A stretch of 5,066 nucleotides of DNA from a bacterium (GTDB lineage Bacteria > UBP15 > UBA6099 > JAJRTR01). Positions 1 to 3,591 of this stretch are shown here, one piece after another. The notes under the pieces are model-generated. The model was given only the letters and a program-made list of their open reading frames with translations, was not told where the DNA came from and did no database searches. Location: assembly GCA_024278215.1 (NCBI GenBank), contig JAJRTR010000004.1, positions 1 to 5,066 on the forward strand. Direction: 5' to 3'. Position 1 is the first letter of the stretch. Each line of letters opens with the position of its first letter. The translations under genes were made by a program, and so were the position numbers.

Positions 1-867
1 ATTCCGATAAAGTATCCCGGCATTGAAGTTGCCAGGCGACACCTTGCCAAAATACTCGATATCGAGTTCGTTGATGTTAAATTCGGCTGTTGCCCCGCGC
101 CGACAGGCCTGAAGGAACTTCATTTCGACGCGTGGCTGGCTCTTGCCGCCCGCAATCTCTGTCTCGCCGAGGAAAAAGAACTCGACATCGTCACGCTCTG
201 CTCGGGATGCACAAACACATTGCGTGAAACAAACAGTATTCTCGGCAGAGATGAAAAGAAAAGGCTTTTCGTTCATGACATCCTGGAGAAACACGGCAAA
301 GAGTTTCAGGGCACGATGAAAATATTTCACCTTCCCGCTCTGTTGTCCCAGGACGAATTTCTCGATCTGATAGAAAAGAAAATAGAGCGCCCGCTCGAGG
401 GCATGAGAGTAGGCACTCACTATGGCTGTCACTACTTCAGACCGCATGATATTATGCTGGACGAACAGACCGACCCGGAACACCCGCTGCCCGAACATCT
501 CGAGATTATACTCGAATCGCTCGGTGCCGAAGTGGTCGAGTACAACCGGCAGGACCTCTGCTGCGGCGCGGCCCTTGGGATCAACACAGGAAAATCCGAA
601 GAAGCGCTTCAGATCACCGCCGAAAAACACAACTGTATGAACGAAGCCGGGCTCGACGCGCTTGTCGTTACGTGTCCCACATGTTTCACACAGTTTGATA
701 CCGGGCAAGTACTCATGCGCCGCAAAAACAAGTCGCTTCGTGTATTTCCAATATATCATATCGCCGAGCTTGTCGCCTTTGCGCTTGGCGCCGACCCCGC
801 TCACCTCAATTTAAAAACCCACAAGATAAAAACGAATCTTCCTGTTGAGCCAATTTTAAAATTCTGA
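1..867 (+). CDS. hdrB: Heterodisulfide reductase subunit B-like iron-sulfur protein (CCG domains), 5'-truncated
   Basis: The frame is open from base 1 to the TGA at 865-867, giving 288 visible residues. There is no start, because the window begins inside the gene; the TTG at 220 is internal. Two CCG (cysteine-rich) domains are visible. The first has C30-C31 in GCCPAP and C67-x2-C70 in CSGC; its leading Cys should lie just before the window. The second has C143 in HYGCH, C187-C188 in DLCCG and C225-x2-C228 in CPTC. In methanogen HdrB these cysteines hold two non-cubane [4Fe-4S] clusters that reduce a disulfide. Spacing and length match HdrB with roughly ten N-terminal residues missing. In bacteria such subunits join HdrA and HdrC in flavin-based electron bifurcation or related cytoplasmic complexes. 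The partner genes are probably to the left, unseen. The C-terminal residues PILKF and the stop come from an inserted repeat (847-1025). A succinate dehydrogenase E-type CCG protein is a less likely alternative. Confidence 0.9.
   Translation: MPIKYPGIEVARRHLAKILDIEFVDVKFGCCPAPTGLKELHFDAWLALAARNLCLAEEKELDIVTLCSGCTNTLRETNSILGRDEKKRLFVHDILEKHGKEFQGTMKIFHLPALLSQDEFLDLIEKKIERPLEGMRVGTHYGCHYFRPHDIMLDEQTDPEHPLPEHLEIILESLGAEVVEYNRQDLCCGAALGINTGKSEEALQITAEKHNCMNEAGLDALVVTCPTCFTQFDTGQVLMRRKNKSLRVFPIYHIAELVAFALGADPAHLNLKTHKIKTNLPVEPILKF
843..846 (+). repeat. Target-site duplication, left of element copy 1 (TGTT)
   Basis: TGTT here lies directly before the GAGCC end of the element and is repeated at 1026-1029 directly after its GACTC end. 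Joining base 846 to base 1030 gives CCT GTT GAA TAA TAA in the hdrB frame, a plausible original gene end with tandem stops. That supports reading these four bases as an insertion duplication rather than a chance match. Confidence 0.75.
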
Positions 868-1025
868 TTCGGCTGCGGTCGGCTGCAATTGTCCATAGCT
901 GCGTTGTCGGCACAAAATCTTCCTCGACGTACTCTACAAGTACGCCTGCGGAGATTTTGCACCTCCGTCTTGATTCCGATCAATTTCGCTCGACCTCGCT
1001 TCGAACATAATTTTGCAACTGACTC
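847..1025 (+). mobile_element. MITE-like palindromic element, copy 1 (complete)
   Basis: This non-coding element of 179 bp starts GAGCCAATTTTAAAA and ends with an inward-facing GAGTCAGTTGCAAAA, so its ends are imperfect terminal inverted repeats matching at 11 of 15 positions. The two 73-nt arms (847-919 and 953-1025) align without gaps as an imperfect inverted repeat, best at the tips and at the inner AAAATC/GATTTT. The 33-nt centre holds a stem GTACT/AGTAC (929-933 with 939-943). The direct repeat TGTT flanks it at 843-846 and 1026-1029. It aligns with the reverse complement of 3412-3591 at about 87% identity (hand count), and its left arm with 4994-5066 at 63 of 73 positions. It carries no conserved reading frame. 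A palindromic, short, multi-copy element with flanking duplications fits a MITE moved in trans by an unseen transposase. Confidence 0.85.
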
Positions 1026-1029
1026 TGTT
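1026..1029 (+). repeat. Target-site duplication, right of element copy 1 (TGTT)
   Basis: This is the second TGTT of the pair with 843-846, immediately after the right terminal inverted repeat. The bases that follow (GAATAATAAC from 1030) supply the two in-frame TAA codons of the reconstructed hdrB end. Confidence 0.75.
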
Positions 1030-1198
1030 GAATAATAACTTGCCGCGCCTTGTATCATGGGCATTCCCGCGATTCCAGCCAGCACAGGTGAAGTATGCGG
1101 GATAACGGAAACATCTCCTGAAATATCCGAAAAACCACATGTTTTTTACGCGATGTATTATAAAAACAAAACGCAACAGCTAAAATTAACACATTGTT
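1030..1198 (+). promoter_or_regulatory. Leader region of the VWA gene, weak promoter candidates only
   Basis: This non-coding stretch separates element copy 1 from the VWA gene. The last 60 bases are AT-rich. TATTAT at 1156-1161 could be a -10 box placing transcription about 30 nt before the ATG, but no good -35 box lies 16-18 nt upstream. TTGAAT at 1028-1033 with TGTATC at 1051-1056 (17-nt spacer) is another weak possibility, and it would straddle the element's right edge. No sigma-54 GG-N10-GC promoter, riboswitch or terminator is visible. A 6-bp inverted repeat, TCCCGC/GCGGGA (1065-1070 and 1097-1102), is probably chance. Confidence 0.3.
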
Positions 1199-3411: not shown

Positions 3412-3591
3412 GAGCCGCTTGCAAAAGTATGTTCGTAGCGCGAGGCCGAACGAAATTGATCGGAGCAAGGCGGAGGTGCAAAATCCCCGCAGGCGTACTC
3501 GCCGAGTACGTTGAGGATGATTTTGTGCCGACAACGCAGCTATGGACAATTGCAGTCGATCACAGCCGAATCGGAATTGTGTAATTGGCTC
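3412..3591 (-). mobile_element. MITE-like palindromic element, copy 2 (complete, inverted)
   Basis: Read on the minus strand, this 180-bp copy begins GAGCCAATTACACAA at 3591 and ends at 3412; read inward on the plus strand from 3412 it gives GAGCCGCTTGCAAAA. The two ends match at 11 of 15 positions and the outermost five bases are a perfect inverted repeat. Its central stem GTACTC/GAGTAC (3495-3500 with 3504-3509) is one pair longer than in copy 1. TATC flanks it at 3407-3410 and 3592-3595, with one extra C at 3411. Its G at 3591 is the last base of the regulator's TAG stop. It sits between the regulator's stop and the shared terminator hairpin. A 74-codon plus-strand frame (3360-3584) runs through it but is not conserved in copy 1. 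Confidence 0.83.

Follow-up and report, generated by a model that had tools for sequence, protein, structure and literature searches.

At the 3' end of hdrB, which opens the 5,066-nucleotide stretch of bacterial DNA analysed here (the window; contig C72 of a genome of 4.55 Mb in 207 contigs), a mobile repeat of 179 bp now supplies the last codons of the open reading frame (ORF). The gene encodes a protein resembling subunit B of CoB-CoM heterodisulfide reductase, and the repeat has the organization of a miniature inverted-repeat transposable element (MITE). It is almost certain that a transposon-type insertion with a 4-bp target duplication rewrote the end of the gene; the short protein tail so created is most likely a neutral by-product. 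The features on which this account is built are the following.

1 to 867, forward strand: hdrB, identified from the ORF and matches to TIGR03288 and Pfam CCG; its 5' end lies beyond the contig
843 to 846, forward strand: left copy of the target duplication TGTT (target C-TGTT-G), from the sequence and family statistics
847 to 1025, forward strand: MITE-like element, 179 bp, with terminal inverted repeats (family consensus GAGCCAATTGCAAAATT)
847 to 867, forward strand: element-derived coding end of hdrB, GAG (Glu kept), Pro-Ile-Leu-Lys-Phe and TGA; the family consensus reads E-P-I-A-K-F-stop
1026 to 1029, forward strand: right copy of TGTT
1030 to 1038, forward strand: displaced original end of hdrB, GAA TAA TAA, from the join of 846 to 1030; the orthologue in genome G001 also has TAA TAA

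The rewritten end of hdrB

The hdrB protein matches TIGR03288 with an E value of 2.6e-74, below the equivalog cut-off, as well as Pfam CCG, and its C-terminus today reads LPVE-PILKF before a TGA. On a second contig, C127, hdrA and hdrC are found together with the start of hdrB; its end overlaps the first 92 bases of the window. A scan of positions 780-1260 for promoters and terminators found neither. The original prediction proposed that joining base 846 to base 1030 recovers an in-frame GAA TAA TAA, and this was reproduced with exact coordinates: the join reads CTT CCT GTT GAA TAA TAA, translates as THKIKTNLPVE followed by two stops, and gives a predicted element-free allele of CCTGTTGAATAATAA. 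The boundaries, the TGTT duplication and the join all place the insertion one codon before the tandem stops, as had been proposed. Because the element begins with GAG, the last Glu codon of the gene is kept, and the ORF from 1 to 867 likewise agrees with the earlier description of a five-residue PILKF tail contributed by the element and a TGA lying within it.

The duplication is a regular property of the family to which the element belongs. Among 95 full copies drawn from fetched stretches of the genome, 63 (66.3%) are flanked by an exact 4-bp duplication, vs 1.9% when flanks of different copies are paired. A C precedes the duplication in 42 of these 63 and a G follows it in 31, a preference for C-NNNN-G that the hdrB site, C-TGTT-G, fits at both bases. 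At another locus, L066, an element copy flanked by TTAC interrupts R2, another repeat dispersed through the genome. Once the element and one of the two TTACs are taken out, R2 reads through the junction from end to end, the sole gap falling a few bases away. The boundaries and the 4-bp duplication are therefore backed independently of hdrB.

With about 250 copies in the genome, the element could also have misled the assembler into fusing hdrB with a locus to which it does not belong. Element copies do lie at the ends of many contigs, the right end of the window contig included, and the overlap with C127 differs at 6 of its 92 bases, which implies either a mixture of strains in the sample or a second copy of the region. 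Matching TGTT on both sides and an in-frame stop at the second codon behind the join, however, would both be expected only of flanks that were once contiguous. Of 94 right flanks taken from other copies and placed behind hdrB, 9 gave their first stop precisely at codon two (roughly 10% by chance) and 1 gave a tandem stop there (roughly 1%), so that the argument from the in-frame double stop to the boundaries and duplication holds as moderate independent support. The matching duplication together with the stop at the second codon makes such a chimera very improbable.

An orthologue without the tail

A search of 386 genomes for hdrB orthologues (E 1e-70) returned a single close one, in G001, a member of another family of the same order; it is 71% identical and carries no element. 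It ends LNLKSHKIPAGALINA-TAA-TAA (KIPAGALINA last), has no tail, and stops one residue beyond the predicted empty site. The expectation that relatives lacking the element would end like LPVE with TAA TAA is thus borne out for the tandem stop and the missing tail; the residues themselves are LINA and reach one position further. The companion expectation, that such relatives would continue like position 1039 onward, was contradicted: the downstream DNA of G001 bears no resemblance and a different gene follows. The mismatch is explained by the nature of the sequence behind hdrB, which is itself another dispersed repeat, so that this prediction was not a fair test:

1038 to 1104, forward strand: 5'-truncated copy of R2, directly behind the original hdrB stop

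R2 is about 84 bp long with a CCCGCAT..ATGCGGG hairpin, has 67 matches in the genome with up to 2 mismatches, and lacks its first 16 bases in the window copy. The G001 orthologue also bears on the idea that hdrB has always ended in PILKF and that the repeat only looks inserted. No point was found in its favour, the tail is encoded by a terminal repeat common to hundreds of unrelated loci, and the orthologue has no tail; the idea deserves practically no credence.

The element family and its age

It is clear that the hdrB element is one of many. A pattern for the core of the element has 254 matches in the genome (4 for the control) and a pattern for the terminal repeat 509, vs 0 for a reversed-pattern control, from which about 250 copies are estimated. 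Full copies are mostly 176-181 bp and carry the 17-bp consensus GAGCCAATTGCAAAATT at both ends; an internally deleted derivative of 46 bp (G000:C6:16952-16997; L096:453-498) consists of little beyond the two terminal repeats and is flanked by a TATC duplication. The absence of any coding capacity, together with the terminal repeats, the constant duplication and the number of copies, identifies a non-autonomous MITE-like family. The family itself looks undescribed. The element had no match in Rfam even at E 1, and none in plasmid and phage collections.

The nine copies of the youngest visible subfamily differ from their own consensus by 1-5 bases, vs 11 differences in the hdrB copy, so that the hdrB insertion, or the copy from which it came, is not recent. 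Two of the 11 lie in the tail, where the Ala codon of the family, GCA, has become TTA (Leu), which is why the tail reads PILKF instead of the consensus PIAKF.

Proposed mechanism and the fate of the tail

A transposase supplied in trans would move the non-autonomous element by its terminal repeats, and the element would have entered the AT-rich target one codon before the hdrB stop, with duplication of 4 bp. Translation would then run five codons further into the terminal repeat and halt at the TGA within the element. Most likely the tail is no more than a neutral side product: the insertion fell where it could be tolerated, at the very 3' end of an operon. On these terms hdrB shows cleanly how a mobile repeat can rewrite the end of a protein and leave the gene unbroken.

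Several observations weigh against this account. A transposase carrying the terminal repeats of the element was sought in the genome among three Pfam families, PF01609, PF13701 and PF05598, and none turned up: PF01609 has three genes, none flanked by the repeats of the element, PF13701 one fragment below the cut-off, and PF05598 none. A broken C-terminal fragment of an IS1380-like transposase (G000:C44:16102-16254; L061, L168) lies about 145 bp from an element copy and was rejected as a source, having no second or matching terminal repeats. No orthologous empty site was found at the nucleotide level, the single close orthologue among the 386 genomes belonging to a different family, and the named genomes hold hdrB relatives of 33-42% identity only, too distant for an empty-site comparison. 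Finally, with 11 differences from the youngest subfamily the hdrB copy is not recent, and selection on the tail is conceivable.

Such selection would mean that PILKF, or the long fold-back behind the new stop, has been recruited to act on HdrB stability or on the end of the mRNA. The frame and the TGA have stayed intact despite the 11 differences, two of which changed a single codon of the tail from Ala to Leu; the element RNA folds better than 200 of 200 shuffles (z -2.7); and in published work MITEs at the ends of genes can serve as targets for RNases (PMC5896051 and the review PMC10969869). An intact frame over only six codons is, however, expected by chance, and the G001 orthologue manages without a tail. 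Recruitment of the tail is an unlikely alternative to the neutral by-product proposed above.

Comparison with known systems

Proteins extended at the C-terminus by MITEs have been published, namely by ERIC/RU-1 on an amidase (PMC2759123) and by QMITE2 on EnhC and at several other 3' ends (PMC5896051), and the type of event seen at hdrB is therefore already known. The published descriptions permit the following comparisons. QMITE2 of Coxiella burnetii extends over the final 1-10 bp of several genes and forms the last 33 residues of EnhC in the Dugway strain, but has longer direct repeats (7-11 nt) and about 50 copies, and contains a GTAG REP targeted by IS1111 (PMC5896051; compared by description only). 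The enterobacterial RU-1/ERIC elements are likewise small inverted-repeat elements at gene 3' ends, as at the amidase gene ECA3499, where the normal stop is removed and the C-terminus extended, but they measure 127 bp, duplicate TA and add about 35 residues vs five here (PMC2759123; also by description only). Rickettsia palindromic elements are tolerated repeats in frame in protein genes; unlike the hdrB element family, which stays between genes or at last codons, they form open inserts inside ORFs (PMC2229807, PMC10969869). The Chunjie MITE of Geobacter uraniireducens, as summarized in a review (PMC10969869) and compared by description only, is similar in its 178-235 bp, terminal and direct repeats, and tens of copies.

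Fold-back relatives in other genomes

A blast search with the family consensus gave hits in four other genomes, one or two per genome, all of them in fold-backs of 175-181 bp whose terminal repeats are quite different. From 12 sequences of five genomes a covariance model of the core was then built; it matches 18 of the 386 genomes besides the hdrB genome, several of them with many copies. The corresponding loci in these 18 genomes (L170-L187, L189-L198) are fold-backs, many of them about 180 bp long; their arms are particular to each genome, but they share a covarying core, whose conserved letters are CTKCGTY...TCCTCRACGTA...TACGCCTSCGG...CTTG. In an alignment of 27 cores fitted to the model, a procedure that favours the named structure, that structure pairs in 84.4% of cells vs 31-48% when slid, with a covariation of 0.447 vs at most 0.115. 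An earlier, unfitted alignment, from which the structure was itself derived, gave 92.0% pairing and a covariation of 0.278 vs at most 49.1% and 0.097 when slid. Outside the hdrB genome target duplications were seen in isolated cases only (G354, G124), and it is the copy number of the relatives that suggests their mobility.

One plausible explanation, which we hold tentatively and at somewhat less than even confidence, is that the element is one member of a superfamily of fold-back mobile elements of about 180 bp, so far undescribed and widely dispersed, in which the arms and terminal repeats differ completely between genomes while a structured core of fixed sequence is kept, so that a conserved protein may recognize the folded core. 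Under the same tentative proposal, the GAG ends would make insertions into TAA or TAG harmless in the family of the hdrB genome. Rfam contains nothing resembling the core, a search of viral contigs with the core pattern found none, and a search of open papers for the core letters gave unrelated matches only. If the core shared between genomes is real, it would define a broad class of fold-backs that share a conserved folded signal, have no known protein partner and can be searched for directly.

Effects of insertions on genes

The window holds two further copies of the element, on either side of an NtrC-like gene:

3412 to 3591, reverse strand: second element copy, supplying with its first G the last base of the NtrC-like gene's stop (TA/G); the empty site reads TAA
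4994 to 5066, forward strand: third element copy, truncated where the contig ends and placed 14 bp before the ATG of the NtrC-like gene

The terminal GAG is the same at both ends of the element, and landing after the T (T/GA) or the TA (TA/G) of a stop codon rebuilds TGA or TAG. Insertion in phase zero adds EPIAKF or EPIAKLCS and then a stop; in other phases about 16-60 codons are read. When genes were called by simple codon usage on the reconstructed empty sites, 10 of the 95 copies proved to overlap one, and nine of the 10 lay within about 50 bp of a gene end; the other, a copy without a good duplication at L147, would fall in a gene interior. Stops completed by the element were found for the NtrC-like gene and at L062, L124, L095 and L115, and tails derived from it in hdrB and in a gene-like ORF at L145 (right-end tail EPIAKLCS). 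A Pfam search of four other 3'-end cases gave no firm domain, those genes being called from codon usage only. Long open frames that read into copies (for example L159, 358 codons, and L112, 327 codons, ending in EPIAKF) were set aside because they find no support in the gene calls from codon usage. EPIAKF and EPIAKLCS tails and completed stop codons in this genome are best read as insertion scars, not as features of the genes. The NtrC-like regulator of the window is thus bracketed by two copies, one of which has changed its stop from TAA to TAG, and the other of which lies just upstream of the sequence AAGAGG.
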